Below, piece by piece: positions 1 to 15,243 of a stretch of 64,000 nucleotides of DNA. The DNA comes from Vibrio sp. DW001 (GTDB lineage: Bacteria; Pseudomonadota; Gammaproteobacteria; Enterobacterales; Vibrionaceae). Under the pieces are notes generated by a model, which worked only from the letters and a program-made list of their open reading frames with translations, did no database searches and was not told the origin of the DNA. The stretch lies in contig NZ_CP091975.1 of the NCBI RefSeq assembly GCF_029016285.1, forward strand, positions 1,922,001 to 1,986,000, in the 5' to 3' direction. Position 1 is the first letter of the stretch. Each line of letters begins with the position of its first letter. The position numbers and the translations under genes are program-made.

Positions 1-458
1 GGTTTATTCGTGTTGACGCGGATGAACTCACTTACCCTGCTCACGTCATCTTGCGTTATGAAATTGAAAGAGATCTTATGAACGGCAAGATCTCGTATAC
101 AGACATACCAGAACTTTGGGACCATAAAATGAATGCCTATCTTGGTTTGTCTACTCAAGGTCATTTCAAAGATGGTTGTATGCAGGATATTCATTGGACC
201 GATGGGGCCTTCGGGTACTTCCCTAGCTATACGCTAGGCGCTATGTACGCGGCTCAATTTATGGCTTCGATGAGGAAAACTGTAGACGTAGATTCTGTGA
301 TTCAAAGCGGCGACCTCTCCCCTATTTTCTCTTGGTTATCGGAGAACATTTGGAGCAAAGGAAGCTTGCTAACGACCGATGAATTGGTTAAGGCAGCGAC
401 TGGTGAGACGTTGAATGCTGACCATTTTCAGGCGCATTTGAGAAGTCGTTATCTTTAA
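1..458 (+). CDS. M32 (Taq-type) metallocarboxypeptidase, C-terminal part
   Basis: The gene enters from the left edge; the reading frame begins at base 3 and about 151 residues are visible. It carries two of the diagnostic M32 family motifs, IRxxAD (IRVDAD near the edge) and GxxQDxHW (GCMQDIHW), followed by the conserved GYFPSYTLGAMYAAQF stretch. The HExxH zinc site must lie upstream of the window. The family consists of cytoplasmic zinc carboxypeptidases that trim residues from peptide C-termini. The first in-window start-like codon (TTG at 51) is inside the protein and is not a real start. A hairpin terminator follows at about 474. Degenerate copies of this gene end recur at 9.0, 10.8 and 14.8 kb. 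Confidence 0.9.
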   Translation, partial: FIRVDADELTYPAHVILRYEIERDLMNGKISYTDIPELWDHKMNAYLGLSTQGHFKDGCMQDIHWTDGAFGYFPSYTLGAMYAAQFMASMRKTVDVDSVIQSGDLSPIFSWLSENIWSKGSLLTTDELVKAATGETLNADHFQAHLRSRYL

Positions 459-473
459 TGAAGTAACCTTAGA

Positions 474-508
474 AAGGCTGATCGTTTTTGACTCAGCCGT
501 TCTATTTA
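474..508 (+). terminator. Rho-independent terminator after the M32 gene
   Basis: The stem GGCTGA (477-482) pairs with TCAGCC (493-498), followed by a moderately T-rich tract. The same GGCTGA/TCAGCC-type hairpin sits after the decayed gene-end copies at 9.3 and 10.96 kb, in weaker form at 14.9 kb, and also at 2.72 kb. Confidence 0.6.
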
Positions 509-645
509 AACACTCAATCATTACAGAGAGTTCTTTACGATATAAGTACCAGTCAAGGTAATGTTTTCGATAACTATTGGACATAACCGTTGTCTTGTTA
601 TCTACATTGTTAGGGTAGCTTTAGGTAAAGATTTCGAACCCTATT

Positions 646-1302
646 TTATATACACTGCGGTTGTGGTGCTTTCTTTGCGACAACAAAATAGCTAGACGCC
701 TCTTTGTATACTTCTTCAGCGACTACTTTTTGAAAATCCCCGTTTTTTATTAGATAGTCCAAATCAGAACTTTTATATCTTCTTATCGTTATTGGGATTA
801 TTCCGAGTTTTGATAAGATTCTAACAAGATAAATTTGCATGTTAACTACAAAGGACTTTCTCCCATCCAAGCAAGGTGTGGCAGAGATAAATAGTCCACC
901 AGGTTTTATTAATTCGTATATTCTTCGAATAACATCGTTAGGATTATCTATGGTATGTAACATATTGAATGCTAGGATTACATCAAATGATTCATTCCTG
1001 AACTGTTTATCAAAAATAGTAGTCTGATCAAAGCTAATATTTTCGATCCTGCTACTAGCCGCTTTAATTTTCGCCGACTCAATCATTTCGGATAATATAT
1101 CTATCGCATGGATTTCTTTGACGTGACTAGCTAGCTCACAGGCTTTTGTACCAGTTCCACATCCGTAATCCAAAACAACATTGTTAATATCTAAGTGTTT
1201 TTTAGTATTTTCTCTTGTCTTATTATGAATATATTTAAAACGATCTTCAGATTTATCGTAGTTTTTTGAAGCTTTATCCCAAAAACTTTTTGTTTTATTC
1301 AT
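646..1302 (-). CDS. Class I SAM-dependent methyltransferase
   Basis: The protein of about 218 residues has the SAM-binding motif I VLDYGCGTG, the acidic motif II end HAIDIL, the post-motif FDVILAFNMLHTI and the late motif LIKPGGLFIS. This is the layout of a UbiE/Tam-type Rossmann methyltransferase, probably acting on a small molecule. The start at 1302 (MNKTKSFWDK) is chosen because an AAGGTG ribosome site lies just upstream; a longer frame begins at 1326. No partner gene is nearby: it stands alone between the carboxypeptidase end and a disrupted LysR gene on the opposite strand. The substrate cannot be told from sequence. Confidence 0.8.
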   Translation of the reverse strand: MNKTKSFWDKASKNYDKSEDRFKYIHNKTRENTKKHLDINNVVLDYGCGTGTKACELASHVKEIHAIDILSEMIESAKIKAASSRIENISFDQTTIFDKQFRNESFDVILAFNMLHTIDNPNDVIRRIYELIKPGGLFISATPCLDGRKSFVVNMQIYLVRILSKLGIIPITIRRYKSSDLDYLIKNGDFQKVVAEEVYKEASSYFVVAKKAPQPQCI

Positions 1303-1427
1303 AGCTTGCACCTTACCAATATCCATGAGTTATAAGCCCACGTGTTTATGTGAAATCTTGATGGTTTGTAATAAAACATTATAGATATTGTATCAATGCC
1401 ATTATGAATAGATACGAACAAAAATGC

Positions 1428-1532
1428 ATGAATGGTATTCACATGAGAATAGACTGGAAAGCTATAGACTTTGATTGGAATCACGCTAGAGCCGTTCTGG
1501 TTACTGCTGAATTAGGTGTAACCCCCCCTTAA
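1428..1532 (+). pseudogene. LysR-type regulator, N-terminal stub cut by an IS
   Basis: Reading from 1428 or 1443 gives a typical LysR N-terminus (DFDWNHARAVLVTAELG), the start of the winged-helix DNA-binding domain. The frame runs into the IS3-family end at about 1514-1517 and stops at 1532 inside it. No continuation of the regulator appears on the far side of the element (2701 onward), so more than a simple insertion happened: the rest of the gene was deleted. It is divergent from the methyltransferase gene, which may have been its target. Confidence 0.7.
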
Positions 1533-2390
1533 TTAATAGCACTCGAAATTAGGGCCTTCCTTTCGTTGTGATTTAGCCAAATACTCCCATGACGTAAGGT
1601 CTGCCAGTGAGTCATGTGGCCGCTCATGGTTATACTCTTTTACCCAGGTTTCGGTTAATTCACGAACTTCATTCAGCGTCTTAAACACGTACATATTCAG
1701 AATGGCATCACGATAGGTTCGATTAAAACGCTTAATATAAGAATTCTGAGTGGGCTTTCCTGATTTGATAAACTCCAGCTCAATCTGATTGTTTTCCGCC
1801 CATTCAGCCAGTTTTAACGAGATAAATTCAAGCCCGTTATCCATTCTTATCTTTTGTGGATACCCACGCCATGCGACAACTCGATCAAGCACGCGAAGTA
1901 TACGAACCGTTGGTAAACTCAAGTCAATTTCTACTGCTAATGCTTCACGATTAAAATCATCTAAAAGGTTAAACGTACGAAAACGTGTTCCACACTGTAA
2001 AGAGTCGCTCATAAAATCCATAGACCAACATTGATTCGCATGGTCTGGCACGCACAGTAGCATAGGGTGACAAGTAGGAAGCCGCTTCTTACCACGTCGT
2101 CGTATATTCAGGTTTAACAAACGATATACGCGATGGACTCGCTTATGGTTCTATTTGTAATCCCATCGTTTTAGAGTCTTAAATAACTTACTAAATCCGT
2201 ATGCTGGATAGCGTTCAACCGCTTTTTGAAGCGCATCAATGACCTCATCGTCTCGATGTAGATCTGGCTGGTATCGATAAACTGAATCGCTAATGCCAAC
2301 AACTCGGCACGCTCTGCGTTGGCCGACGTTATATTTGTGTTTCACATAATCAACCAACTCACGGCGAACCGATGGCTTTACAGCTTTTTT
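1533..2390 (-). pseudogene. IS3-family transposase OrfB with internal stop
   Basis: Two same-frame pieces (2151-2390 and 1533-2120) make up the DDE integrase: the HTH_21-like N-terminus (RRELVDYVKHKYNVGQRRACRVVGIS spans the frameshift entry), then WSMDFMSD with the first catalytic D, RMDNGLEF with the second, and a conserved C-terminal QNSYIKRFNRTYR region. They are separated by an amber TAG at about 2154 where a tryptophan codon would be expected (KRWDYK then NHKRVHRVYRLL). A single point mutation explains the break. The usual catalytic E position reads Y in QNSYIKRFN (typically QNAFIERFN), suggesting further decay. Confidence 0.75.
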
Positions 2391-2647
2391 TCAATAACGT
2401 CTTTAAGGATGGAGTGATCCAGACTTAAATCTGCATACATCTGTTTTAATCGACGGTTCTCTTCTTCAAGCTCTTTCAATCGCTTAATATCAGAGCTATC
2501 CATGCCGCCGTATTTAGACTTCCAGCTATAATACGTTCCATCGGAAATACCGTATTCACGACAAACATCCGATACTTTTCGACCTGCTTCAACTTCCATC
2601 AAAATCTTAACGATCTGCGATTTTGTATAGCGTGACTTTTTCATCAT
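2378..2647 (-). CDS. IS3-family transposase OrfA
   Basis: This 89-residue protein has an N-terminal helix-turn-helix (KSRYTKSQIVKILMEVEAG, then DVCREYGISDGTYYSWKSKYGG) and a leucine-zipper-like C-terminus (LKELEEENRRLKQMYADLSL), the standard OrfA layout. Near its end the minus strand reads A-AAA-AAG (2384-2390), a canonical slippery heptamer for the -1 frameshift that would fuse OrfA to OrfB. OrfA itself looks intact, but OrfB carries a nonsense codon, so the element is probably unable to move on its own. Confidence 0.85.
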   Translation of the reverse strand: MMKKSRYTKSQIVKILMEVEAGRKVSDVCREYGISDGTYYSWKSKYGGMDSSDIKRLKELEEENRRLKQMYADLSLDHSILKDVIEKKL

Positions 2648-2722
2648 CGTTCTCCGTTTTACTTAGTTTAAACGGAAGAACTCTAAATCGGAATACACCT
2701 ATTTTAGGGGAATAAATCGATA

Positions 2723-2756
2723 GAGGCTGATCAGTTTATTGATTCAGCCCTTTTAA
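2723..2756 (+). terminator. Hairpin terminator, apparently left from a deleted module
   Basis: GGCTGA (2725-2730) pairs with TCAGCC (2744-2749), followed by CTTTTAAA. It resembles the terminator that follows the carboxypeptidase gene ends, but no gene end precedes it: only the IS3 end lies upstream. It may be the last trace of a module removed together with most of the LysR gene. Confidence 0.5.
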
Positions 2757-2892
2757 ATCACATTTTCAAAACATATTTGGCTGATTTAAAGACAATCCCC
2801 CTAGTTGATCTTCACAATCGCTTTAGGATCAAACAGGTACAATCAAACTAAAATCATTCCTAGTTTGTCATTCCTAGTTGCTAGCATGAATC

Positions 2893-2932
2893 TGGACAAT
2901 TATGTGTCAGTCACCTTGCTAATTTAGCAAAA
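2893..2932 (+). repeat. Dispersed repeat of about 40 bp, copy 1
   Basis: Shares the core TGTGTCAGTC and a downstream CTAATTTAG-like stretch with copies at 48036-48070 and 51841-51880. All three are intergenic. It may be a solo terminal repeat of a lost element. Confidence 0.45.
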
Positions 2933-3055
2933 TGTAAATGGGTACAAACGGTAGTAAACAGTTAATCTTTTAAGCCTCTTGTGCTAATGGTGCTATCAAA
3001 AATAATTTTTCACCCCTCAACTACAAAAAACATTCACATTTTCACAAATAATATT

Positions 3056-3075
3056 CGATGGATCTAATCCATCGG
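3056..3075. promoter_or_regulatory. Palindromic operator, LysR-box type, upstream of the serine hydrolase
   Basis: CGATGGAT-CTA-ATCCATCG is an 8-bp perfect inverted repeat with a 3-nt centre and contains a T-N11-A core, the signature of LysR-protein sites. It ends 115 bp before the start codon at 3190. A near-identical site lies 124 bp upstream of the M20 peptidase start, and a half-site lies about 95 bp upstream of the outer-membrane protein start. Confidence 0.65.
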
Positions 3076-3189
3076 AAGAGATTAAGAGTTGTCTGGTATC
3101 CCTCGTATTATATTTGCAATTAAGAAGACCACAGCGGTGTCGTTTTCTACACGCTGTTTATTCCGCACTTATATATCAACAGGACAAAC

Positions 3190-4476
3190 ATGATGAAAAA
3201 ATTAGTCGCTTTATCAATAACAACAGCTCTATCTGCAGGAGCTGTGTTTGCTAATGAAATCGTAAATGACACAGTAACAAATAAAGACGTATACAATACT
3301 CATGAATTTTTCTTACAAAAAGGAAACCGCGTAAAATTGCAATTTCCAATTAAGCAATCGAAATTTGCTTGGCAAAACCTAAGCCGTTTTTACCCTACTG
3401 CTCAAGTTGAGCGCGATGGACCTGTTTATCAATTTCCATATAAGATCAACAATAAGATTGGTGAGATTGAAGCGACTATCCATGGAAAAACTAAAACATT
3501 AAACGGCCACTTAGATTCTTATCCCGTTGATGCATTTCTCGTAGTAAAGAATGGTGAGATTATCTTTGAACGTTACAATACGATGAGCAAAACTGACAAG
3601 CATAATTGGTTCTCAAATTCTAAAATCACAGCAGGCATCGAGCTAGCCAAATTGGTAAGTGAGGGGAAAGTTAACCCTAATGATCCTATATCCCAATACA
3701 TCCCAGAATTAAAGGGCTCCGATTGGGATAACGTATCAGTCATCGATACTGCGAACATGGCGACTGGTTTAAACGCGACTGAGCATGATGAACCAGAGGC
3801 TGATTCACGAACAAACCCCAAGCAAACTTGGTTTAAATGGGCAGTTTCCATTGGTGTATTTGAAGGTGATGTTAACCAATCTCCACTAGAAGTTTTAGCG
3901 GAGATGAGACGAAAAGCTCCGGGTGGTGAAACGTTCGAATATAACTCTATCAATACGTTCGTGATTTCTCGACTTGTTGAAAACGTACGTGGCCTACCGA
4001 TGAATCAGATAATTAGTCGAGATATGTGGCAGAAAATGGGCGCAAACAATGACGCATACACGGTTGTCTCTCCGCAGGGAGGATATCCATTGATGTTCTT
4101 TTCAATGAATACAACGATTGAAGATATGACAAAATTCGGTATGTTGTTCACTCCTTCTGCGGAAAAATTAGGTAATGGTGGCATAAGCAACAAAGTAATA
4201 AAGTTAATCCAAAATTCTGGTGACCCAGAAGCTTACGGTGGAGGTTATGTAGGTAAGATGATGGAAAACTCTTTTTACAACGACACAAACATCAAGAATG
4301 GGTATCAATTTGATGCAATCTTTGAGGATGGCGACCTATTCAAGGCAGGTGTTGGCGGGCAAGGTGTTTACATTTCGCCAGATAAAGACTTAGTAATCTC
4401 TTTCTTCTCAACAAGCAACGGTAAAAACCAAGAAGAAACTTATGCCCGTGAGATAGCAAAATATTTCAATAATTAG
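3190..4476 (+). CDS. Secreted serine hydrolase, beta-lactamase / NylB-like
   Basis: A 428-residue protein with a cleavable signal peptide (MMKKLVALSITTALSAGAVFA, cut near residue 21). It has the penicillin-binding-type SxxK motif as S142-N-S-K145, a candidate tyrosine motif Y251-N-S after GGETFE, and a late GVGGQGVYISP segment. This is the layout of class-C beta-lactamase-fold hydrolases such as 6-aminohexanoate-dimer hydrolase; the family covers esterases, amidases and peptidases, so beta-lactam resistance should not be assumed. Located in the periplasm or outside. A second ATG follows at 3193. It has its own palindromic operator upstream and a strong terminator downstream, so it is probably monocistronic and co-regulated with the outer-membrane protein and M20 peptidase genes. 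Confidence 0.8.
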   Translation: MMKKLVALSITTALSAGAVFANEIVNDTVTNKDVYNTHEFFLQKGNRVKLQFPIKQSKFAWQNLSRFYPTAQVERDGPVYQFPYKINNKIGEIEATIHGKTKTLNGHLDSYPVDAFLVVKNGEIIFERYNTMSKTDKHNWFSNSKITAGIELAKLVSEGKVNPNDPISQYIPELKGSDWDNVSVIDTANMATGLNATEHDEPEADSRTNPKQTWFKWAVSIGVFEGDVNQSPLEVLAEMRRKAPGGETFEYNSINTFVISRLVENVRGLPMNQIISRDMWQKMGANNDAYTVVSPQGGYPLMFFSMNTTIEDMTKFGMLFTPSAEKLGNGGISNKVIKLIQNSGDPEAYGGGYVGKMMENSFYNDTNIKNGYQFDAIFEDGDLFKAGVGGQGVYISPDKDLVISFFSTSNGKNQEETYAREIAKYFNN

Positions 4477-4558
4477 CGATGTAAGATAACCGTTGTCACT
4501 CAACAGCCCGAACTCTGAGTGATCCAGTGGTCGAATTTAACATGTTCTAAACTCTGGT

Positions 4559-4588
4559 AACGTCAGTCAATAGACTGGCGTTTTTTAT
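4559..4588 (+). terminator. Rho-independent terminator after the serine hydrolase
   Basis: ACGTCAGTC and GACTGGCGT form a 9-bp stem (with one G-T pair) around an AATA loop, followed by TTTTTT. Classic form. Confidence 0.85.
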
Positions 4589-5175
4589 GATTAAATAACA
4601 ACAAACTCGTCACCGCCAAACCCTGCTAAAAGATCATGTCCGCATTCACACTGAATAAATTACTTTGCGTCACCCCAGCACAACAAATTGCCTAGGTCAG
4701 GTGCTATGAAGCTATTGACACTTTTCAAAACTATGTCGAGTAATGTTTAAGCCTTTGCAAAGATTAGCTAAGAAGAAGTTGTTGCTGGTATCTGGTACCT
4801 AATTAAATCTATTAGTTGTGTTAATAGCACATATAGCTCGTCAGAGTTATCGTTCATTTCTAAGAAGGTAGCCAAACTCGAAGCTACCAAAGTCGAACTA
4901 TAATACAAAACTAAGCATGACATAAGTTGGCTTTCTCGCTGATGGTTTCGTGGCGCTCTAATTCTGGACCATCAGCGATGTGACAACAGCTATAGCAAAT
5001 GAAGTAGATTGAGATAGATACGCATAGAAGGAATGTAGAGGACATGGCAATGGGATTTAATTTACTTTAGCCGAACATTTAACGGTCAGATGAATCAAAC
5101 GTCAGCGCAGTATCAGAGCCCCATCTGACAAGAAAATGAAGTCACATAAACAATAATAGAGGACCTTGAAATAGC
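4589..5175. other. Intergenic stretch with no recognised gene
   Basis: About 590 bp without a supportable ORF. It contains the 10-bp perfect inverted repeat at 4937-4977 and a smaller one (GGTAGC / GCTACC, near 4867-4888). Confidence 0.6.
4937..4977. repeat. Perfect 10-bp inverted repeat
   Basis: CGCTGATGGT (4937-4946) and ACCATCAGCG (4968-4977) are exact reverse complements separated by 21 nt. No T-run follows, so it does not look like a normal terminator. Function unknown. Confidence 0.6.
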
Positions 5176-5208
5176 AAAAAGGTGAATGTTTCAATTCACC
5201 TTTTCAAA
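5176..5208 (-). terminator. Terminator after the outer-membrane protein gene
   Basis: AAAAGGTGAAT (5177-5187) pairs with ATTCACCTTTT (5194-5204) around a short loop. On the minus strand the stem ends in a T-run, matching the end of the gene at 5236; it could also work in the other direction. Confidence 0.8.
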
Positions 5209-5235
5209 TGTATTATTGCCATTACTTAAATACTA

Positions 5236-5988
5236 TTAGAAGAACACCTTGTATTGGAACCAAGCCACTGTATCGTCGATATCAATGCTTTGATTCGCTG
5301 ACTTCATGCTTCCATAAGTGTTTTCCACCTTAAACTGGCCCCAACGTGTTTTGTCTGCGGAAAAAGGCGTTGCCGCAAGCAGCGTTGTTTTAACTGTGCT
5401 TGTTTCAATATCTCCGTTCATATAAGTAAATTCTGGATAAGCAGCAAAATAAGTACCATCTGCACCCGGCTTCCATACCGCATAAGCCGCAGCCATACCA
5501 CCAATGATACTGTTATCTTGCACGCCAAAAGCGGATGTTGTGTTATATGAGTATTCACCTCCAAGTACAGCAGCACGCCCAAAAAAGGTCAGTGAATCAA
5601 CTGGAGTTTTAAAAATAGCCACTCCACCTGCCGCTGCCGTAGTAAAGCTAGTATTATCGATGATATCCAAAGATGCCGCTACCCGAGGTGTAACTGCATT
5701 ATTTAGGCTGAATACATGGAAATACTGAGCACGGCTATCCTTATACTTACCATCATTGTCCATAGACCCTTCCAAAGTAACCATCGACATTTGACCGTTA
5801 TCATAAGCGTATGATAATGCCCCAGATAACTTAATGTCACCTTGGTTACTGGTCGCCACGTACATGTTGGAACTAGCACGAGTCATATCGGATGGATCGA
5901 CCTCTTTTGCGCCATCGCCAGCAAAAGCGGAAAGAGAAAGAGTAGCAAGTAAAGCAGTCGATAAAGCGGTCATTTTTACGATTGTCAT
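5236..5988 (-). CDS. Exported protein, probable outer-membrane beta-barrel, function unknown
   Basis: A 250-residue protein with a clear signal peptide cut after SLSAFA (about residue 23). The mature part is rich in alternating polar/hydrophobic segments, G/S/T and aromatics, and ends in WFQYKVFF; a C-terminal phenylalanine is the usual Bam recognition signal of outer-membrane barrels. I do not recognise a named family. It is divergent from the LysR gene at 6286 and sits between two secreted hydrolase genes, so a role in uptake of their products is an inference. A palindrome half-site lies about 95 bp upstream. Confidence 0.65.
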   Translation of the reverse strand: MTIVKMTALSTALLATLSLSAFAGDGAKEVDPSDMTRASSNMYVATSNQGDIKLSGALSYAYDNGQMSMVTLEGSMDNDGKYKDSRAQYFHVFSLNNAVTPRVAASLDIIDNTSFTTAAAGGVAIFKTPVDSLTFFGRAAVLGGEYSYNTTSAFGVQDNSIIGGMAAAYAVWKPGADGTYFAAYPEFTYMNGDIETSTVKTTLLAATPFSADKTRWGQFKVENTYGSMKSANQSIDIDDTVAWFQYKVFF

Positions 5989-6077
5989 GATATTTACCTA
6001 GGTGATTTAAGTTAAGTTGCCGTAGCAATGACGTAACTTTACCTAGGGAATTGGTATTCACTAACTCTCTAGCGAAG

Positions 6078-6092
6078 GGCTTAATCCATCAT
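6078..6092. promoter_or_regulatory. Operator half-site upstream of the outer-membrane protein
   Basis: Read on the minus strand this is TGATGGATTAAG, matching one arm of the palindromes at 3056 and 8831. The other arm is degenerate. It lies about 90-105 bp upstream of the start at 5988, the same spacing as the full sites. Confidence 0.4.
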
Positions 6093-6285
6093 GAATACCA
6101 ATATGTAGTCGATCTGGGATGACTTCAGAGCTTTTCGCATGACAACAAAAAATATCTTTAAACAAAGCGATAGAAATACAGAGTTTGAATGTGGTGAGTA
6201 TATAAAAGTAATAGAGGTTGTGTTGGCTAAAAATCGACTCAGTGTTAATATTTTATCATCTTTGATAAAGAACGTTGTCGATAGC

Positions 6286-7185: not shown

Positions 7186-7195
7186 AAGTCCAGAC

Positions 7196-7222
7196 AAAAA
7201 GGACTCAAATGAGCCCTTTTTG
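7196..7222. terminator. Bidirectional terminator between LysR and M20 genes
   Basis: AAAAAGGACTC and GAGCCCTTTTT form a stem with one mismatch around AAAT. It has a T-run on one side and an A-run on the other, and serves the convergent genes ending at 7185 and 7253. Confidence 0.8.
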
Positions 7223-7252
7223 TTCAATCATATTCCTATACACAGATTAAAA

Positions 7253-8707
7253 TTACATTTCTTGCATGTTATTCAGTAAGTTATGGAAAAACTGGATTGA
7301 ATTCGCGTATTCATCAATGAGAACTCGTTCATTCACACCATGCCAGCGAGCAGCATCCGCAGCGGATTCAACTCGAACCGCGGTGAAACGATACACATTA
7401 TTGACCATGTCTGTTGCCGCAAACCATTTTGCATCAGCACCACCAATGACCAAATAAGGCACAACCGCTAGATCATCTTGTTCATTCCATGTTTGATGGA
7501 TAGTTTTTTCAATCATTTGATATTCTGCTCCAGTTCCTGCAATAGGAGATGGATTAATAGACGCTGGATTATCTGTGATGGTCACACGCTCATCATTAAT
7601 GACATTACTCACATATTCAGTCACTGACTCAATACTGTCTCCTTGAAGGATACGGAAGTTAACTAAGGCATCCGCACTTGGAGCCATAACGTTTTCCTTA
7701 ACTCCACCATCAACAACCGTGACCGCAGTAGTCGTATGGATCATTGCTCTAGTGATCGGATTAGAATATAAATATTCCAACAGTGAATCGTCATCTTTCA
7801 ATACTTTTCGTTGTTCCTCCGTCATATGTGGTGCCATCGCCTTAAATTGCTCTCGTACTGAATCCGTTAGCGAAACGGGGAATGGGTTAGATTCTAACTT
7901 AGCAATAGCGTTCGATAAAATACCTATATTTGATTCTTCCGGAGGCATAGCAGAGTGACCACCAGGTCCTTCAACTTTAAGCTCTAGAGTCAGGTAACCT
8001 TTTTCAGCAATACCAAGTAAAGCGGCAGGTTTATCAAACCCAGGGAAAATACCGGCCGTAACCGGTAACCCTTCATCAACAACCAAAGCGACTTCATTGA
8101 TACCTCGCTCTTGCAGCACTTCTACAATGTGCTTAGTTCCTTCAGGTCCCCCGACTTCTTCATCTTGACCGAAAGAGAGATAAATTGTGCGCTCTGGTCG
8201 GAAGCCTTCCGCAAGTTGCATTTCAATCGCTTCCATAATGGCATGTATCATTATTTTGTCATCTAAAGAGCCGCGCCCCCAGATATATTTATCATCTATA
8301 TGTCCGGAGTAAGCATCATACTCCCAGTCTTTTTCTGTTCCGGGAACAACAGGCACTACATCTTGATGTCCCATCAATACAATAAGGGGTAATTCTTTAT
8401 TTTGGCCTTCCCAAGTATAAAGCAGGCTATATTCTCGACCAGCACCAAGCACTTCTTTTTTGAGCGTTTTATGCAACAAAGGATAAGTCTTTTCTAAGTA
8501 GGCATGGTAACCAGTAAATGCCTCTGAATCGAAATCGGAACGATCTTGGTTAGAAATAGTTGGGTACTGGATACCTACTGATAATCTTTGCGCGGCTTCT
8601 AATGCATTAATATGACCTTCAGTTCCTTGTGCCATCGCAGATGGTGCGAACAAAGACGAACCGAGTAAAGCAATTTTACACAAAGTGGCTATTTTTTTAG
8701 GGAACAT
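7253..8707 (-). CDS. Secreted M20-family metallopeptidase (carboxypeptidase S-like)
   Basis: A 484-residue protein with a signal peptide ending PSAMA (about residue 26). It has the two-zinc M20 site: GHQDVVP (H114, D116), GRGSLDDK (bridging D149 or D150), the catalytic/metal pair DEEVGG (E183, E184), and the dimerisation-domain start GPGGHSAMPP. Length and motif spacing fit the M20A carboxypeptidase S/Gly-X group, which releases C-terminal residues from short peptides or hydrolyses N-acyl amino acids. The export signal places it in the periplasm. A palindrome lies 124 bp upstream, shared with the serine hydrolase gene. Confidence 0.85.
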   Translation of the reverse strand: MFPKKIATLCKIALLGSSLFAPSAMAQGTEGHINALEAAQRLSVGIQYPTISNQDRSDFDSEAFTGYHAYLEKTYPLLHKTLKKEVLGAGREYSLLYTWEGQNKELPLIVLMGHQDVVPVVPGTEKDWEYDAYSGHIDDKYIWGRGSLDDKIMIHAIMEAIEMQLAEGFRPERTIYLSFGQDEEVGGPEGTKHIVEVLQERGINEVALVVDEGLPVTAGIFPGFDKPAALLGIAEKGYLTLELKVEGPGGHSAMPPEESNIGILSNAIAKLESNPFPVSLTDSVREQFKAMAPHMTEEQRKVLKDDDSLLEYLYSNPITRAMIHTTTAVTVVDGGVKENVMAPSADALVNFRILQGDSIESVTEYVSNVINDERVTITDNPASINPSPIAGTGAEYQMIEKTIHQTWNEQDDLAVVPYLVIGGADAKWFAATDMVNNVYRFTAVRVESAADAARWHGVNERVLIDEYANSIQFFHNLLNNMQEM

Positions 8708-8830
8708 GATTAAATCCTATTTTTGCTAAATTAAGTGCCCCATTTATTTCAATGAAGTCACGATATGAGTATTAATGTCGTGTTGATGACAGCAAGAATA
8801 GGCGCTTTTTTTAGATCGGTGTAATACCCT

Positions 8831-8850
8831 CCGATGGATCAAATCCATCA
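8831..8850. promoter_or_regulatory. Palindromic operator upstream of the M20 peptidase
   Basis: Read on the minus strand it is TGATGGAT-TTG-ATCCATCG, matching the 3056-3075 site in both arms except one outer base. The following GGAGGG also resembles GGAAGAG at the first site. It ends 124 bp before the start codon at 8707. Confidence 0.65.
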
Positions 8851-9006
8851 ATCTCATGAATGTATATATAGTTGTAGCATTTTCGCGAAATTGACTCTCT
8901 TGGGTACTATTAAAATCATTGACGGTTTTATTCTGTCGTGGATTGTCAATATTAATTATAGACTTAGATTTTATTGTTACAACTAAGCTCTACTCACTCC
9001 ATAAGT

Positions 9007-9290
9007 ATGCAGGTTACATTATACCGTAGACGGATGGGGCCTTCGGGTACTTCCCTAGCTATACGCTAGGCGCTATGTACGCGGCTCAATTTATGGCTTC
9101 GATGAGGAAAACTGTAGACGTAGATTCTGTGATTCAAAGCGGCGACCTCTCCCCTATTTTCTCTTGGTTATCGGAGAACATTTGGAGCAAAGGAAGCTTG
9201 CTAACGACCGATGAATTGGTTAAGGCAGCGACTGGTGAGACGTTGAATGCTGACCATTTTCAGGCGCATTTGAGAAGTCGTTACCTTTAA
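9007..9290 (+). pseudogene. Partial copy of the M32 carboxypeptidase 3' end (copy 2)
   Basis: From about 9033 to 9290 the DNA repeats the gene end at 201-458 almost base for base (GGGGCCTTCGGGTACTTCCC onward), coding GYFPSYTLG through HLRSRYL. Upstream of the GATGGGG point the match is lost except for ATGCAGG at 9007, and this upstream stretch (TGCAGGTTACATTATACCGT) recurs at copy 3. No start or catalytic motif is present, so it cannot be functional. It looks like a junction left by integration. Confidence 0.9.
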
Positions 9291-9305
9291 ACATCTAAAT
9301 AACAT

Positions 9306-9337
9306 AAGGCTGAGCAGGTTTAAGTTTCAGCCTTTCT
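9306..9337 (+). terminator. Terminator after carboxypeptidase copy 2
   Basis: AAGGCTGA and TCAGCCTTT form the stem, with a T-rich tail. Same hairpin type as at 474. Confidence 0.65.
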
Positions 9338-9497
9338 AACCACCTCGATAATAACATCGCTTAAAGCCATATTCGAACATCTCTACGTTATGAAATTTAG
9401 ATTAATCTTTTCTTTAGGATAACCTCTGTTATTCAAAATCATACCAATTTTCAAAATTTTCTGACCAAGCACTTCAGAACACTACAACGGGGTTTCC

Positions 9498-9761
9498 TTA
9501 CCTTTTTAGAGTTACTAAAGACGTAATTTTCCTAGCATAACGATGTCTACCAATATCAGTAAGTGTTATTCCAATTTTTGCGACTATATTACCGATTATT
9601 TTTAACAGCGTGTAGAACTTACATATATCGTCTGAACTATATTCTTTATAAAAAGCATCTTCTTTTTTCAACATTTGAGTTTTACCACCATCAGGGAACG
9701 GAACTTTTCTTGATGTGTGCTTCATAAAATATCTGTTTTTCTCTCCTGCTTTTGTTTTCAT
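9498..9761 (-). CDS. Small protein of unknown function
   Basis: An 87-residue basic protein (MKTKAGEKNRYFMKHTSRK start) that I do not recognise. A GGAG ribosome site lies just upstream of the ATG (CACGGAGCCTAAA). It has no signal peptide or clear membrane segment; a hydrophobic stretch (IIGNIVAKIGITLTDIG) lies in the C-terminal half. It is divergent from the LysR gene at 9911. It could be the remainder of a longer gene or a chance ORF. Confidence 0.4.
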   Translation of the reverse strand: MKTKAGEKNRYFMKHTSRKVPFPDGGKTQMLKKEDAFYKEYSSDDICKFYTLLKIIGNIVAKIGITLTDIGRHRYARKITSLVTLKR

Positions 9762-9910
9762 TTTAGGCTCCGTGCTAACTGTATTTTCTCACTCCAACAA
9801 TATTGATCTATGTGATATTTACGACAAAAATCAGAATGAGACCTTTGACTGATCTACAGATTACTAGACAATGTAATTTCATCAACAAATCGACATGCAA
9901 AGGTCTTTTC

Positions 9911-10723
9911 ATGAATAAAAAGAAAGTGGATTGGAACGATCTTCAATTGTTTATTTCTGTAGCAAGAGAAGGTGGTCTTTCAGCAGCAGCAAAATCGAGT
10001 CAACGAAGCCCTGCAACACTGGGACGCAGGATGTTTGCACTTGAGCGTAGCTTAGGAAAAGAACTGTTTATCCGTCATGATCGTGGATATGAGTTACTTG
10101 CCGAGGGAAGAAAATTGTTAGAAGAACTAACTGTCATCGAATCAAAAGTTACTAGCTTCACAATGACAAGTTCGCAAAGCAAAAAGCCGTTAGTCAAAAT
10201 CTCTGCAGGAACGTGGACGACACTTTTTTTAATCCAACATATTGATCAATATTCAGGAACGTTAGATAACACGCTTATACGCTTCATCTCTACAGAGAAA
10301 ATACTGGATATATCGCACAGAGAAATAGTTATCGGCATTCGAAACAGTAGACCGACAGACGAATCTCTAGTATGTCGTAAACTTAAACGTGTCGATTTTG
10401 CACCCTATTCAACGCCAGAAGCTCCTGAATTATGGATAAAAGTTCTTGAAGATATCCCCTCAGGTCGCTGGCTTGATCGCTTTGTTATGAGTAATTCAAT
10501 ATGCGAAGTAAGTGTACCGAGAAACAGCCTTGATATCGCTCTTGAGAGTAAGGGCATAGCCCTTCTTCCTACTTTTATAGGAGATACGCAACCTAAACTT
10601 AAACGTGTAGGAAATATAATTGATGAACTTAGTCATGACCGATGGTTGGTGACACACCATGAGGATAGATATTTACCAGAAGTAAGGAACCTCATAATTA
10701 GACTCGGTAGAATTTTGGAGTAA
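9911..10723 (+). CDS. LysR-type transcriptional regulator, short
   Basis: A 270-residue protein beginning MNKKKVDWNDLQLFISVARE. The winged helix is typical (GGLSAAAKSSQRSPATLGRRMFALE). The effector domain is shorter and less canonical than usual (families are normally around 300). The open frame extends back to 9803, but the family start is 9911. Nearest neighbour is the small divergent ORF at 9498-9761; no clear target. This regulator and the truncated one at 1428 belong to similar DW-N type LysR groups. Confidence 0.8.
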   Translation: MNKKKVDWNDLQLFISVAREGGLSAAAKSSQRSPATLGRRMFALERSLGKELFIRHDRGYELLAEGRKLLEELTVIESKVTSFTMTSSQSKKPLVKISAGTWTTLFLIQHIDQYSGTLDNTLIRFISTEKILDISHREIVIGIRNSRPTDESLVCRKLKRVDFAPYSTPEAPELWIKVLEDIPSGRWLDRFVMSNSICEVSVPRNSLDIALESKGIALLPTFIGDTQPKLKRVGNIIDELSHDRWLVTHHEDRYLPEVRNLIIRLGRILE

Positions 10724-10837
10724 CTTTGATATGATTTTCTGTTGTTTACTTAGATCAACCTGAAGAGCATTGAAATGATTCATTACCAATGTCCGACTTA
10801 CAATGCGTCACAAACGCACAACGCAATTCCAGTGACA

Positions 10838-10941
10838 ATGCAGGTTACATTATACCGTCGACCAATGAGGCCTTCGGGTACTTCCCTTCCTACACTTTAG
10901 GCATAATGTATGCGGCGTATTTGAGAAGTCACTATTTGTAA
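10838..10941 (+). pseudogene. Carboxypeptidase 3' end, copy 3, internally deleted
   Basis: Starts with the same ATGCAGGTTACATTATACCG flank as copy 2, then codes AFGYFPSYTLGIMYAA and jumps directly to YLRSHYL-stop. About 170 bases between the AYAA-type segment and the C-terminal seven residues are missing. Copy 4 at 14.8 kb has the same deletion junction (GCGGCG-ATTTGAGAAGTC). Confidence 0.85.
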
Positions 10942-10956
10942 TGATTTAGATTGGTT

Positions 10957-10988
10957 AAGGCTGGGAGTTTTCTGTTACAGCCTTTTTA
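10957..10988 (+). terminator. Terminator after carboxypeptidase copy 3
   Basis: AAGGCTG and CAGCCTTTTT form a stem followed by a T-run; same position relative to the gene end as in copies 1 and 2. Confidence 0.6.
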
Positions 10989-11074
10989 ATTAACGTCAGG
11001 TAGGGATTCTAAAGCTCGCTTATGTACGAAAAGCTGAAAGAGTTACTTTACTGTTTCTCTCTACAATTGGAGAC

Positions 11075-11400
11075 GTGATGTCGTGTTTAAACCTCTCCAG
11101 TGAACTTTAGAAAAACGTATGATGCTAGGGCAAAAAACGTAACTACATTGAGTGTTTCTATAACCCCTAAAAAATTCGTGGTACAAGAAACGGGGTGTCG
11201 CCTTACCAGTCTTTGTGGACAATCTTTTGCCCAAAATAGTGGGGTTATTAAAGTGGACCTTTTTACTATGCTCGGATTGCAATCTGCAATCTGCAATCTT
11301 CAATCTGCAATGCGCGGTGCGATGAAAAAACCACAAAACTCGGCAAAAATAGCATCGAAGTTTGTACAAACGCTTATTTAGAGTTGCATTAAAATTGCGA
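11075..11400. other. Block without a convincing gene, containing a heptad repeat
   Basis: Several overlapping frames are open on both strands (for example 11087-11296 and 11061-11492, minus), but none has a ribosome site or recognisable domain. The block contains five tandem TGCAATC-like heptads. It may be a structured non-coding element; I cannot assign it. Confidence 0.4.
11278..11312 (+). repeat. Five tandem TGCAATC heptads
   Basis: Units at 11278, 11285, 11292, 11299 (TTCAATC) and 11306 (TGCAATG). Exact or one-mismatch copies in direct tandem. Confidence 0.85.
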
Positions 11401-11477
11401 CAGCGTACCGAGCAGATAAAAGAGAACCTCCATTTTACTTCTAAAAGGGATATCATAAGGAAGGTAAATGTACTTGA

Positions 11478-11503
11478 AAATAAGGGGAGCATAGGCTCCC
11501 CTC
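11478..11503 (-). terminator. Terminator of the TRAP transporter operon
   Basis: GGGGAGC (11484-11490) and GCTCCCC (11495-11501) form a strong stem with an ATAG loop. On the minus strand a TTATTTTC tail follows. It lies just after the DctM stop at 11526. Confidence 0.8.
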
Positions 11504-11525
11504 CCCCAAAAAAGAAACTGAAGTA

Positions 11526-12833
11526 TTAGTTAATCAATCCAAACATTCTCGGTAAGAATAGGCTGATCTCTGGAATAAAAGTGATAGCCAATAATGTGAC
11601 GATCAGTACAGCACAAAACGGCATTATGCTTCTTATAACATCTTCAATCTTAGAGCCACTGACACTACAACCTACAAATAATGCAGTACCAACTGGTGGT
11701 GTTGCAATACCAATACATAAGTTGAATATAATCATCATCGCAAAGTGAATCGGATGCATACCCAGATGCTCAGCAATCGGCATAAAGATAGGAGTAAAGA
11801 TCAATACGGCAGGCGTAAGGTCCATAAACATACCAACAATCAGTAAAATCAGATTCATCAGAATAAAGATGATAATAGGATTATCTGAGATAGATAGCAT
11901 CCAATCACTGATCATCGTTGGAAGACCTGTAAAAGCCATTGCCCAAGACATGATGGTTGAAGCACCAATCAAGAACAGCATAATACCGGTGACCTGAACT
12001 GTTTCTCTGCAAATTAGTGGGAAATGCGACCACTTGAGTGTTCGGTAACAGAGTGACAGTGCAAAAGAGTAAAGAACCGCTATACATGCACCTTCTGTTG
12101 CGGTGAATACGCCTCCAATAATGCCGCCAATAACAACAAAAATAAGCCCTAAGCTTGGCGTTGCTTGCCAGACAATGTTCAATACATCTTTAGTTGTGAA
12201 GCCGTCATTAGCACTTGTTTTGTAGCCTTTCTTTTTAGCAATGAAATAGGCTACGACCATACAGCTTAAACCCATTAAAATACCTGGAACATAACCTGCA
12301 ATAAACAGTGCCGCAACCGATGTTCCACCCGATACAACTGAAAATACGATTAATGAATTACTCGGCGGAATCAGTAAGCCTGCTGGGCAGGATGCGACAT
12401 TTACTGCTGTTGCTAAGTTTTTATCATAACCATCTTTTTCTAATTCAGGGCCTAAGGTTTTACCAACCGCTGCCGCTGCCGCAACGGCTGATCCAGAAAC
12501 TGCGCCAAACATCATATTGGCAAAGATATTAACGTGTAAAAGTGAACCAGGGATCCAGCCAACCAAGAGCTTTGCAAGGTTAATAAGTCGACCAGCGATA
12601 CCACCCACATTCATTATATTCCCGGCGAGGATAAAGAAAGGGATAGCTAATAAACTGAAACTATCAATACCAGTAATAATTTTTTGACCCGCAGTAATAC
12701 TTGCGACTTCAAACGGTAAAATAAAATACATGATAGTCAAAGACGACATTGCAATTGCAATTGCAATTGGCATGCTTATCGCAATCATGAATAAGAATAG
12801 GCCTAGCAGCCAAACACCAATGGACAAGTCCAT
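11526..12833 (-). CDS. dctM: TRAP transporter large permease, DctM type
   Basis: A 435-residue integral membrane protein with about twelve hydrophobic segments and the family signatures PFFILAGNIMNVGGIAGRL and the GTALFVG region near the C-terminus. It is the ion-coupled permease of a tripartite ATP-independent periplasmic (TRAP) transporter. An AAGGA ribosome site precedes the ATG at 12833. It is last in the operon after the binding protein and the small permease, in the usual P-Q-M order. The substrate class (carboxylates, sugar acids and similar) cannot be fixed from this subunit. Confidence 0.92.
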   Translation of the reverse strand: MDLSIGVWLLGLFLFMIAISMPIAIAIAMSSLTIMYFILPFEVASITAGQKIITGIDSFSLLAIPFFILAGNIMNVGGIAGRLINLAKLLVGWIPGSLLHVNIFANMMFGAVSGSAVAAAAAVGKTLGPELEKDGYDKNLATAVNVASCPAGLLIPPSNSLIVFSVVSGGTSVAALFIAGYVPGILMGLSCMVVAYFIAKKKGYKTSANDGFTTKDVLNIVWQATPSLGLIFVVIGGIIGGVFTATEGACIAVLYSFALSLCYRTLKWSHFPLICRETVQVTGIMLFLIGASTIMSWAMAFTGLPTMISDWMLSISDNPIIIFILMNLILLIVGMFMDLTPAVLIFTPIFMPIAEHLGMHPIHFAMMIIFNLCIGIATPPVGTALFVGCSVSGSKIEDVIRSIMPFCAVLIVTLLAITFIPEISLFLPRMFGLIN

Positions 12834-12854
12834 AATTTAGAGTCCTTTTTAAAC

Positions 12855-13334
12855 TTATTTTTTGTTAGGTTCACAAAAAAGGTCAATCGTATTTATTGCC
12901 AAATAAATGAGAATAACAACGGCTGAAATAGGTAATATTGAATAAACCGTAGACATCGGTAATTGCAATGCAGGTGATAATTGTTGTGTGGTTCTTCCCA
13001 TTAGAGCGATACCACCTTTAAGCATTGCTAAAGACACAAATGCGCTTGAGATTACATTGATGAGTATATGTAATGCTTTATGTGCTTTTCCCTTAAGATA
13101 ACCATCCAATAACGTTATTGCTAAATGTCCTTTTATACCGAATAAGTAGCTTGCTCCTAATAAGCCAAGCCATACCATCGCATAACGAGCGAGTTCATCA
13201 GTCCAGTTACTTGGGTCATTCAACACATAACGACTAAAAACTTGCCAAGTGACAGTAACTACAAGCAACATTAATGCAAAAGAAGAAATAAAGAGAATCA
13301 ACCTATCAAGTAGGTTTCTGAAAGTTGTTAACAT
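12855..13334 (-). CDS. dctQ: TRAP transporter small permease, DctQ type
   Basis: A 159-residue protein with four membrane segments, starting MLTTFRNLLDRLILFISSF. The DctQ hallmark SNWTDELARYAMVWLGLLG is present. The start at 13334 is preferred over the in-frame 13373 because of a GAGG ribosome site before it and because family members begin here. It pairs with DctM, whose gene starts 21 bp downstream. Confidence 0.9.
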   Translation of the reverse strand: MLTTFRNLLDRLILFISSFALMLLVVTVTWQVFSRYVLNDPSNWTDELARYAMVWLGLLGASYLFGIKGHLAITLLDGYLKGKAHKALHILINVISSAFVSLAMLKGGIALMGRTTQQLSPALQLPMSTVYSILPISAVVILIYLAINTIDLFCEPNKK

Positions 13335-13401
13335 GGAATGATACCTCAAAAAATTTTGCCCCAGCAAAGCCAAGGCAAAATTATATTTTTACTAATACTA
13401 A

Positions 13402-14361
13402 TTAAAGAGCTTCAATTTTCTCAATAAATGAAGCTAGTTTAGAATCTTTTTTAGCTTCATCAATCATAGGTTTAACAGCCGTACGGAAAGGGGCTTTATC
13501 GACTTCAACAAATGTTACGCCTTCTTTGATTCCTTTCTCTTTGTTCATGTTGTCTGTTGCGTCCCAGATATTGATCTGTTCTTCAAGAGACTCAGCGGCT
13601 GCTTCTTTTAAGATTTTTTGCTCTGCTGCTGTTAATGAATTCCATTTATTCTCTGAAATGATAATCACATCAGGTGTCATCATATGCTGATCCATAGAGT
13701 AAAATTTAGCAACTTCACTATGTTTCATTTCAACTAAGCTAGAAATATTATTTTCAGCACCGTCAATTACGCCTTGTTGTAATGCAGTGTAAACTTCATT
13801 GAATGGTACAGGTGTTGCCTTCCCACCTAATAGATTAACCATTTCCATCATGGTTGGAGAACCTGGAACACGAACTTTCATACCAGCAAGATCAGCAGGT
13901 GAGTTAATTGCTTTTTTAGCGTAGAAACTACGTGTACCAGAATCATAAAAAGTAAGACCAATGAAACCTTTACCTTCGCTTGAAACTAACATCTCTTGTG
14001 CTACTTCACTTCTCATGAATTTTCTCATGTGTGGAACATCACGGAATAAAAAAGGTAGTGCATTAACTTTAAAAGTTGGTTCAAAAGATTCTGCTAATCC
14101 ACCATTGATTTTAGCCATATCAATCGCACCAGTAACAACTTGCTCAGCTTGATCACGTTCAGAACCTAGTTGACCGTTTGGAAAAATCTTAATAGTCAGG
14201 TCGCCATTCGATTTTTCTTTAACTTTATCTGCCATGATCACCATACCTTGGTGAGCAGCGCTTTCTAATGACATTGCATGTCCAAGTGTTAACATTTTTG
14301 CAGATACATTTACGCTAGTAAAAAAAGATGTAATAAGTAAAGGTAATATTAGTTTCTTCAT
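13402..14361 (-). CDS. dctP: TRAP transporter periplasmic solute-binding protein, DctP type
   Basis: A 319-residue protein with a signal peptide (MKKLILPLLITSFFTSVNVSA). Family features include LGHAMSLES near the mature N-terminus, GQLGSERD, and the GMKVRVPGSP segment whose arginine usually grips the ligand carboxylate, followed by the ALQQGVIDGAEN signature. Start 14361 is set by AAGGA upstream; the frame stays open to 14442. The presence of the ligand arginine suggests an organic or sugar acid substrate. No catabolic gene accompanies the operon here. Confidence 0.92.
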   Translation of the reverse strand: MKKLILPLLITSFFTSVNVSAKMLTLGHAMSLESAAHQGMVIMADKVKEKSNGDLTIKIFPNGQLGSERDQAEQVVTGAIDMAKINGGLAESFEPTFKVNALPFLFRDVPHMRKFMRSEVAQEMLVSSEGKGFIGLTFYDSGTRSFYAKKAINSPADLAGMKVRVPGSPTMMEMVNLLGGKATPVPFNEVYTALQQGVIDGAENNISSLVEMKHSEVAKFYSMDQHMMTPDVIIISENKWNSLTAAEQKILKEAAAESLEEQINIWDATDNMNKEKGIKEGVTFVEVDKAPFRTAVKPMIDEAKKDSKLASFIEKIEAL

Positions 14362-14766
14362 TATGTTGTCCTTAATATATTTATGTAATAACTGATGTTT
14401 TGAACATTGGATATAAGCAATCTTTAAAACATTACTCTCCAAAAGTTGAAGATCATAATACTAATGTAGTCTTGTATTACAATAATACGACGTAAGAAGC
14501 ATGATCAAAGCACTGTGTTAGATCACATTTTTAGCCTATATTCTACATTATCGCTCTTTTTTACCGATTTTAGTTAACCTGAATTACCTTAAACGAGCCA
14601 CTTAACGTGGTCGATTAAGTTTTTAAAATCTTATAATATTAATATATCCCGAAATCAACTTATCCCTATTCCAGTAACATCAAGTACGTTTATTCAATTC
14701 TTATTAAACTTTGTTAATACTATTAATTGCGTTATCTCATAAAGGTTCTTGAAGGTACGTTTTGAA
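14362..14766. other. Upstream region of the TRAP operon, no gene seen
   Basis: AT-rich non-coding sequence that must hold the promoter of the TRAP operon near its right side of 14361. I see no clear palindrome or further gene. Confidence 0.5.
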
Positions 14767-14897
14767 GCAGGATATTCTGTGCCTATCCACTTATAATGCG
14801 GGGGACAATACATTTGACCGATGGGGCCCTCTGATACTTCCCTTCCTACACTTTAGGCACAATGTGTGCGGCGCATTTGAGAAGTCGCAACCTTTAA
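14767..14897 (+). pseudogene. Carboxypeptidase 3' end, copy 4, internally deleted
   Basis: GCAGGATATT (14768) matches the original gene, then about 35 unrelated bases intervene before CATTTGACCGATGGGGCC resumes the match. The rest follows copy 3: CCTTCCTACACTTTAGGC, then the same deletion junction GCGGCGCATTTGAGAAGTC and a stop at 14895. The frame is broken by substitutions. It is followed by a weak hairpin of the same terminator type. Confidence 0.8.
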
Positions 14898-15243
14898 TCG
14901 CATTGATAATTTAAGGTTGGTTAATTTCTGTTCCAGCCATTTAAATCTTACTAATAATCACAACTGACAAATTGTGCTTTAACACATTTGGACAAACGTT
15001 TGCCAGTGCATTTACCAATGTTGCATTTCACGGATTATCTCAGGTATCGATAAACACTAAATTATCTATATGCGGCAAGCCAAGTTCATTCAACCACTAC
15101 AGCAATAAGAATGCGAACAGGGGCTAGATGTGGGCTTTATATGAGAAATCGTTAACCCACAAAGGAATATATGTAAACGAAAAAGACTAAAATTTAACCT
15201 ATACTTTTAACCGAGACCGCTGAAAAATATAGGAAGTGATAAT
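14898..15243. other. Intergenic stretch, no gene seen
   Basis: Contains a weak AAGGTTGG/CCAGCC hairpin near 14915-14940 and the AGGAAGTG ribosome site before 15244. Nothing else recognised. Confidence 0.5.

Follow-up and report, generated by a model that had tools for sequence, protein, structure and literature searches.

The stretch of DNA analysed here (the window) comprises 64,000 nt from Vibrio sp. DW001 (G000:C1:1922001-1986000; the genome, G000, consists of two contigs and 5.46 Mb). It opens within a gene for an M32 carboxypeptidase and contains further copies of the 3' end of this gene. The 3' part of the gene, the presumed target of insertion, occupies 1..458 on the + strand (full open reading frame (ORF) G000:C1:1920965-1922458, 497 amino acids). 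Its current 3' end (copy 1, 201..458, +) also forms the opening part of cassette A, the first of three cassettes (A-C). A displaced end at 9033..9290 (copy 2, +) is identical to copy 1 at 257 of 258 positions. Two shorter ends of 78 nt each follow on the + strand: copy 3 (10864..10941), with an in-frame internal deletion of 180 nt, and copy 4 (14820..14897), which has the same deletion, contains an in-frame TGA and is the last end of the array. The repeated 258-nt end begins at the GAT of codon Asp413. Among direct repeats of at least 30 nt in window positions 1-16000, we found only the gene ends with their flank and the terminator region; the cargo between them was not repeated. In the whole genome, good matches to the 258-nt end were confined to the four places of the array, and the remaining listed matches (15-42 nt, E 0.35-4.3) were at chance level.

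Each displaced end in the window is preceded by a sequence that we term the element-borne arm (P arm). The arms of junctions 2 (9007..9032, +) and 3 (10838..10863, +) belong to one family, A: the flank ATGCAGGTTACATTATACCGTAGACC (up to 3 mismatches) occurs only at these two places in the window, against a shuffle expectation of 0. A search of 227 genomes of the genus for the 18-nt core of family A, TGCAGGTTACATTATACC (up to 1 mismatch), gave five occurrences, two each in G000 and G022 and a single one in G138, and all immediately precede a displaced M32 end. The arm of junction 4, ATGCGGGGGACAATACATTTGACC (14794..14819, +), lies outside family A. Within the gene itself, a predicted attB-type target, ATGCAGGATATTCATTGGACC joined directly to GATGGGGCC, spans 180..222 (+), with a predicted crossover dinucleotide GA at 201-202; its extent was deduced from the junction comparison and dyad centres described below.

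The initial annotation of this DNA had described four gene-end copies with separate cargo between them, an upstream flank shared by copies 2 and 3 and unlike the host gene, a similar terminator after each copy, and no visible integrase. The copies, the shared flank and the separate cargo were confirmed. A terminator-like sequence common to all copies was recognized by eye and falls in repeat family D2, and no recombinase of the M32-associated family introduced below was detected in the genome, either in a protein search (E≤1e-8) or in a profile search (E≤1e-30). The coordinates of copies 1 and 2 also stand, whereas copy 3 starts at 10864 (10838-10863 being flank) and copy 4 at 14820. Judged by its sequence, the window is a three-cassette array without a recombinase.

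To place this array in context, we searched the genus Vibrio with one genome per species, initially 148 and later 227 genomes. The 258-nt end was matched at the DNA level in 125 of the 148 genomes and by translation in 142; two or more DNA matches were present in 13. At least two translated matches were seen in 23 of the 148, ten of which (G003, G046, G055, G068, G097, G108, G115, G120, G129 and G145) were left out of the count of displaced ends, their second match not being placed among the matches listed. Reading of the loci identified displaced M32 ends in 13 genomes (G000, G018, G022, G053, G056, G072, G073, G082, G127, G128, G138, G164 and G169), in arrays of 2-4 ends. Note that G164 and G169 come from the 227-genome set, for which displaced ends were not screened as a whole. 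Gene end and displaced end lie on separate contigs in G056, G127 and G128, and the displaced end of G053 is truncated; G065 and G087 have short fragments only, and G084 a weak match.

We next compared 21 displaced ends with a preserved left side (20 chromosomal, 1 plasmid-borne) with the M32 gene of their own genome (G006 for the plasmid end), taking in 39 nt on the upstream side (-7 to -45) of the GA in codon 413 and 45 nt on its downstream side. Downstream of GA, 29-45 of 45 positions matched M32 in all 21 ends. Upstream, only 8-19 of 39 matched in 20 of the 21, indicating that similarity ends precisely there. The sequences upstream of the junction form several families. Because several unrelated arms meet M32 at one and the same GA, a single ancestral duplication is insufficient to explain the junction. 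A 64-nt segment in G022 (L040:9667-9730) matches the end of cassette A by 90.6%. The match takes in the P arm and the opening bases of an M32 end but not the remainder; it is perhaps a further decayed junction.

Comparison of M32 genes between relatives showed that the gene ends have been exchanged. In G018, the 5' part is 85-95% identical to that of G017, G120, G115 and G146, the current 3' end 72-73%, and the displaced ends 88-95%. Similar values were obtained for G072 against G115, G146, G108 and G017 (5' part 87-93%, current end 65-68%, displaced ends 87-92%) and for G169 against its relatives (92-94%, 67-68% and 93.7%, respectively). To all appearance, the present gene end is foreign in these three genomes and the native end has been displaced. 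G128 and G056 differ in the 5' part of M32 (66.5% identity) and share a 3' end (98.4%). In G018 and G072, moreover, the chromosome beyond the last displaced end corresponds to the sequence directly after M32 in G017, G120, G115 and G146, which thus represent empty sites. A foreign end was not evident in the window when compared with the sister genome G022 (5' part 91.4%, 3' end 87.8%); the closest genomes also carry arrays. These data bear on the possibility that a larger block, gene end together with cargo, was duplicated in tandem. The deletion common to copies 3 and 4 would be compatible with local duplication at that place. For the array as a whole, however, the unrepeated cargo contradicts it, and in G018, G072 and G169 the displaced ends resemble the native ends of relatives while the current end is foreign, leaving this explanation very unlikely.

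Genes for large serine recombinases (LSRs) were first spotted in the arrays of G018 and G127, where they begin beside displaced ends. A search with the G018 protein yielded the LSRs of G128 and G056, and a profile (A1) of three sequences (G018, G127, G128) was searched in the 227 genomes. The six best matches scored 426-917 bits and the next one 231; G169 and G164 were newly added. All six LSRs (G018, G127, G128, G056, G169, G164) adjoin M32 or a displaced end. The unbiased count is 4 of 4, for the LSRs found by similarity alone (G128, G056, G169, G164). A Pfam scan of three LSRs detected Resolvase and Recombinase domains in each and a zinc ribbon in two of the three, one falling under the Pfam cut-off. 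Insertion by a tyrosine integrase would be an alternative to a serine recombinase. Vibrio islands at gene ends commonly depend on tyrosine integrases. However, in 13 genomes (G164, G169, G128 and G056 not among them) no PF00589 domain lay inside an M32 array among the matches listed, the nearest being in G072 at 2,042,684, ~15 kb upstream of the M32 end. We regard this agent as hardly credible.

More distant LSR loci of the genus, in two overlapping sets of 26 (L084-L109) and 21 (L127-L147) with ~1.5 kb flanks, had no M32 3' end among the matches listed; both loci of G008 showed a weak 24-residue match to another part of M32 (E 0.005-0.006). A search of other genera of the order (197 genomes, E≤1e-60) gave six genomes with an LSR. 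Two of the six were Vibrio genomes identified before, and M32 was absent from the 1.5 kb around the four newly examined loci. Among 84 loci, comprising the best 80 of 203 LSR relatives from viral contigs and 4 genomic loci, none matched M32. As for a mobile form, the phage collection contained no match to the gene end and the viral contigs no confirmed match. Five records of the plasmid collection matched the query, four of them upstream query parts; the match in the fifth, V. diabolicus pSLV18-213K, starts at the junction and takes in the 3' end. On this plasmid (L110), an M32 3' end of the displaced type with the GA junction lies at 14971-15257, and a 20-residue M32 N-terminal fragment (23625-23684) lies 8 kb away in reverse orientation. 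Given this fragment, the plasmid-borne end may be captured chromosome rather than a vehicle.

In each of the six LSR genomes, the M32 gene has the order ..GCMQDIHWTD, a short element-coded peptide, NY(K/R)(N/D)GC(M/L)QDIHW and the normal continuation. This in-frame scar followed by a repeated QDIHW target indicates that the gene-end copy of the element carries a whole new target. A search with the scar pattern identified 6 of the 227 genomes, namely five LSR genomes and G221; the scars of G164 and G087 are longer and beyond the pattern. G087 and G221 have scars but no LSR at E≤1e-30. No element accompanies the scar of G221, whose M32 3' end resembles a native one (5' part 98.6%, 3' end 96.9% identical to G120), so that the scar is best read as the footprint of element loss. 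Scars of this type also occur in two genomes from another genus of Vibrionaceae (G436, G440). The M32 gene of G087 (L058:2714-4390) has two stacked in-frame scars, giving a carboxypeptidase of 558 amino acids.

The scar is absent from the LSR-less arrays of G000, G022, G138, G073 and G072. This absence would be expected if homologous recombination alone were responsible, with RecA or natural transformation spreading the ends through their 258-nt homology and the constant junction going back to one ancestral duplication. Homogenization of ends points the same way: in G000, copies 1 and 2 are identical over the first 251 nt from the junction and diverge after the gene end, and in G022 the first 76 nt are identical. 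In addition, G022 and G073 share a two-ORF segment of 621 nt next to a displaced end at 88.4% identity, against 68.5% for their M32 5' parts. Recombination alone nevertheless leaves unexplained why several unrelated arms share the GA junction, why six LSRs lie at the site, and the presence of scars and of dyad-symmetric attP sites (see below). We therefore consider it improbable as the sole process.

For six sites, we reconstructed attP by fusing the arm in front of the displaced end (P) with the one inside the gene (P'), and scanned 45 centres for dyad symmetry. The best centre fell on GA in five of the six reconstructions and was tied for best in G164. In those five, the dyad score was reached by 2-35 of 1000 shuffles. 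The attP sites of G128 and G056 contain a perfect inverted repeat of 9-10 bp at equal distance from GA on both sides. According to Rutherford et al. (2013, PMC3783163), the LSR zinc-domain motif is shifted outward by 5 bp in attP relative to attB, and canonical LSRs join attP with attB, the reverse reaction requiring an extra factor. An attB-like motif displaced outward by 5 bp was the best fit in 6 of 19 arms, comprising the five family-A arms and that of G127. Window arm 4 showed no shift match to attB.

The window arms also resemble LSR arms directly. For arms 2 and 3, 18 of 27 positions agreed with the LSR arm of G127 (0 of 2000 shuffles) and 15-16 of 27 with those of G018 and G169 (at most 4 of 2000). 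The sole good match of arm 4 was to the G018 arm (15 of 27; 4 of 2000). Against the arms of G164, G128 and G056, all three window arms matched at 8-12 of 27 positions, values reached by at least 79 of 2000 shuffles. This resemblance could mean that the window cassettes are the decayed remains of LSR elements that each brought a recombinase and later lost it along with the scar. G087 and G221 have scars without a detectable LSR, and G221 shows that clean element loss is possible. In contrast, no LSR was detected in G000, G022 or G138, which together hold five family-A junctions, although short remnants would escape detection, and some cassettes of ~1 kb consist of a toxin-antitoxin pair and a gene end alone. 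Decay has a real but minor share of the probability among histories that involve an LSR. Alternatively, since the family-A sites are P-B' hybrids, LSR-less cassettes might be mobilized in trans, which is possible but unproven; homologous recombination may also have spread them.

Taken together, we consider it highly probable that M32 serves as attB for a family of Vibrio integrative elements moved by LSRs, with gene and target being rebuilt and the elements stacking serially. In the proposed mechanism, the LSR would cut codon 413 (Asp) at the dinucleotide GA. On the incoming circle, the right side of attP would be fused in frame to the element's own M32 3' end, which in recombinase-bearing elements would include an entire new attB. 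Integration would then produce a gene composed of the host 5' part and the element's 3' end, gene restored and target rebuilt, followed by the cargo, the P arm and the old, displaced 3' end. Repeated insertion at the rebuilt target would generate a tandem array with the newest cassettes nearest the gene. Homologous recombination between ends would delete cassettes and homogenize ends, and could move cassettes between strains; the identity tracts and the element loss in G221 argue for such a contribution.

Several observations weigh against this reading. In the window's genome no LSR of the family was detected at the thresholds given above, and its cassettes have neither a P' half nor a scar, so that the window gives no direct view of a canonical attP x attB event. 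The ends flanking cassette C (copies 3 and 4) have the 180-nt deletion in common, implying that cassette C was inserted next to a displaced end that was already shortened, or was produced by duplication. For these reasons we can only infer the history of the window. For the clade of the window itself, neither blastn of the loci, nor G022, nor homologues of the GyrI-like gene downstream of the array revealed an empty site. Three of the six LSRs were inputs of profile A1. For G127, G128 and G056, the two element ends joined into attP lie on different contigs and were assumed to belong to one element, and the dyad of G164 was not significant (382 of 1000 shuffles). Taken singly, the +5 shift was reached by 0 of 1000 shuffles for G127, 4 for G000 copy 2 and 40 for G000 copy 3, and by 58-241 of 1000 for the other three arms. 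The remaining 13 of 19 arms showed no shift, G082 matching attB unshifted, and the displaced end of G082 is still similar to M32 upstream of GA (31 of 39). Finally, cassette B cargo is present in G022 at 13.0-14.3 kb with no 3' end detectable nearby, and in G006, G076 and G108 no displaced end was found in the 1.9-3.4 kb that separate M32 from the conserved flank.

The broader suggestions of the initial annotation fared accordingly. Its proposal of integrative elements using a gene 3' end is borne out by junctions at one dinucleotide and by the exchanged gene ends of relatives. That each insertion restores or duplicates the gene end is supported in the relatives; given the deletion common to copies 3 and 4, the TRAP cassette (C) cannot simply have displaced an intact end. 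The occupied/empty pattern it looked for exists in G018 and G072 versus G017/G120 and G115/G146, and was not found for the window's clade. The integrase it sought, with relatives inserting in M32, corresponds to the six LSRs at M32 or a displaced end, a serine recombinase. Of the two situations it named as counterevidence, modules without gene-end copies occur in part, as cassette B cargo in G022, while tandem duplication of a block is contradicted by the unrepeated cargo.

The cassettes of the window contain diverse cargo, as judged from Pfam-type domain matches and ORFs. Cassette A (459..9006) encodes a methyltransferase (646-1326, -), a LysR N-terminus truncated by an IS3-family insertion (about 1518-2710), a PF00144 serine hydrolase (3190-4476, +), a 250-residue ORF without Pfam match (5236-5988, -), a second LysR (6139-7185, +) and an M20 peptidase (7253-8707, -). 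The IS3-family insertion contains OrfA (2378-2647) and an OrfB part split over two ORFs (1533-2120 and 2151-2357); the LysR gene that it breaks is intact in G022. Over its first 937 nt, the methyltransferase/LysR part shows 91.7% identity to G022. Cassette B (9291..10837) carries an 87-residue ORF (9498-9761, -) and a LysR regulator (9803-10723, +), and its cargo is 90.4% identical to G022 across 1,295 nt. Cassette C (10942..14793) encodes a TRAP transporter with DctM (11526-12833, -), DctP (13402-14442, -) and, between them, an ORF (12855-13373, -) taken as the small permease by position alone.

Downstream of copy 4 lie GyrI-like, LysE and RND genes. The GyrI-like protein (15244-15696) adjoins the last displaced end and has a weak second match to Cass2 (integron-associated effector binding). 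Its homologues in relatives are 50-53% identical and lie on contigs other than that of M32. The chromosome past copy 4 had no blastn match among the M32 loci examined in relatives, and G022 has no comparable stretch within 36 kb after M32.

In relatives, the cargo includes type II toxin-antitoxin units. G022 contains a 1,049-nt YefM-YoeB unit between the M32 end and the methyltransferase cassette, which in G000 directly follows M32. G138 has Phd/ParE and ParD-like/ParE-like pairs and G073 has PrlF-YhaV. The two-ORF segment of G022 (L040:7336-7956; also in G073) has the look of such a pair and was not counted as toxin-antitoxin, having no Pfam toxin and a weak deaminase match for its second ORF. 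Defence genes are likewise found. Septu genes lie within the LSR element of G018, Dpd genes follow M32 in G127 (the LSR being on another contig), G169 has the BREX genes PglX, BrxA, BrxB and BrxC, and G164 a PD-T7-5 homologue. The G169 element (G169:C1:1961376-2012435; L158-L160) extends over ~50 kb with its LSR at M32, the BREX genes, a dynamin-family protein and, by reading alone, a patatin-like protein. G018 (L047:4317-10771) and G072 share a four-gene operon between displaced ends. Its assignment to Wadjet was rejected, as PADLOC matched only the WYL neighbour and Pfam returned DUF3584, MksE under the cut-off and DUF7281. In view of this outcome we term the operon MksB-like; together with its WYL regulator it is possibly Wadjet-like.

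These findings name a likely agent and an exact base for an integration hotspot that occurs across many species of Vibrio and carries BREX, Septu, Dpd and toxin-antitoxin genes; its scars extend to at least one further genus of Vibrionaceae. The displaced ends and scars provide a readable record of past insertions, and the six LSRs, for which attP was reconstructed and attB is conserved, can be tested directly and are potential tools for genome engineering. More speculatively, and with some doubt, M32 might be a serine-recombinase analogue of the integron, in which LSRs that the host usually lacks would act in trans to capture, stack and exchange non-autonomous cassettes, the gene acting as a self-renewing site that collects translated scars. 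If so, such a cassette would comprise little beyond a toxin-antitoxin or regulator gene and its gene-end/P-arm site.

Among the papers listed in searches of the open-access literature, no title or abstract opening reported M32-targeted LSR elements or cassette arrays from Vibrio, and the accessible portion of PMC12824646 mentions neither "carboxypeptidase" nor "serine recombinase". Chromosomal integrons and superintegrons are similar in that small cassettes, including toxin-antitoxin pairs, pile up behind one insertion point. They differ from the M32 system, which has a serine and not a tyrosine recombinase and uses a protein-coding gene end rather than attI/attC; no tyrosine integrase (PF00589) was among the matches listed inside the arrays of the 13 genomes searched. 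As far as their available descriptions go, the Vibrio trmE/dusA genomic islands likewise insert at a protein-coding gene end, with different target genes. The phage-inducible chromosomal island-like elements (PLE) of V. cholerae are satellites moved by an LSR (Int) in Vibrio and have an anti-phage function; in the sections available of PMC6002521, however, their target is the V. cholerae repeat (VCR), excision is set off by a phage protein, and no M32 array appears.

A close parallel is the staphylococcal cassette chromosome (SCC). Tandem composites and recombinase-free elements occur in SCC. The M32 arrays similarly reflect serial insertion at a regenerated gene-end site, some without a recombinase. 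SCCmec, as outlined in the available part of PMC6222049, inserts by LSR (Ccr) action in the 3' region of the conserved gene rlmH/orfX, with attL and attR at its ends and variable cargo, and in its LSR insertion site and variable cargo it resembles the M32 elements. The same part of that source describes the Enterococcus cassette chromosome (ECC), from which the M32 system differs in gene and LSR as it does from SCC; direct repeats of ~50 nt are described there, and no displaced 258-nt ends. The M32 system is distinguished from SCC by its target, an M32 peptidase rather than rlmH, by its Gram-negative host, and by the replacement of ~85 codons per event, an in-frame scar peptide and a rebuilt attB. 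In NCBIfam, one of three LSRs reached 41.2 bits to CcrA (cut-off 700) and the other two had no match. In conclusion, the M32 elements appear to resemble SCC and ECC in their working, but their recombinase is not CcrAB and they are not members of either. They would represent a Gram-negative counterpart to the logic of SCC, with the uncommon features that the target is rebuilt at each insertion and that the attL scar is translated inside the host enzyme, where scars can be stacked.

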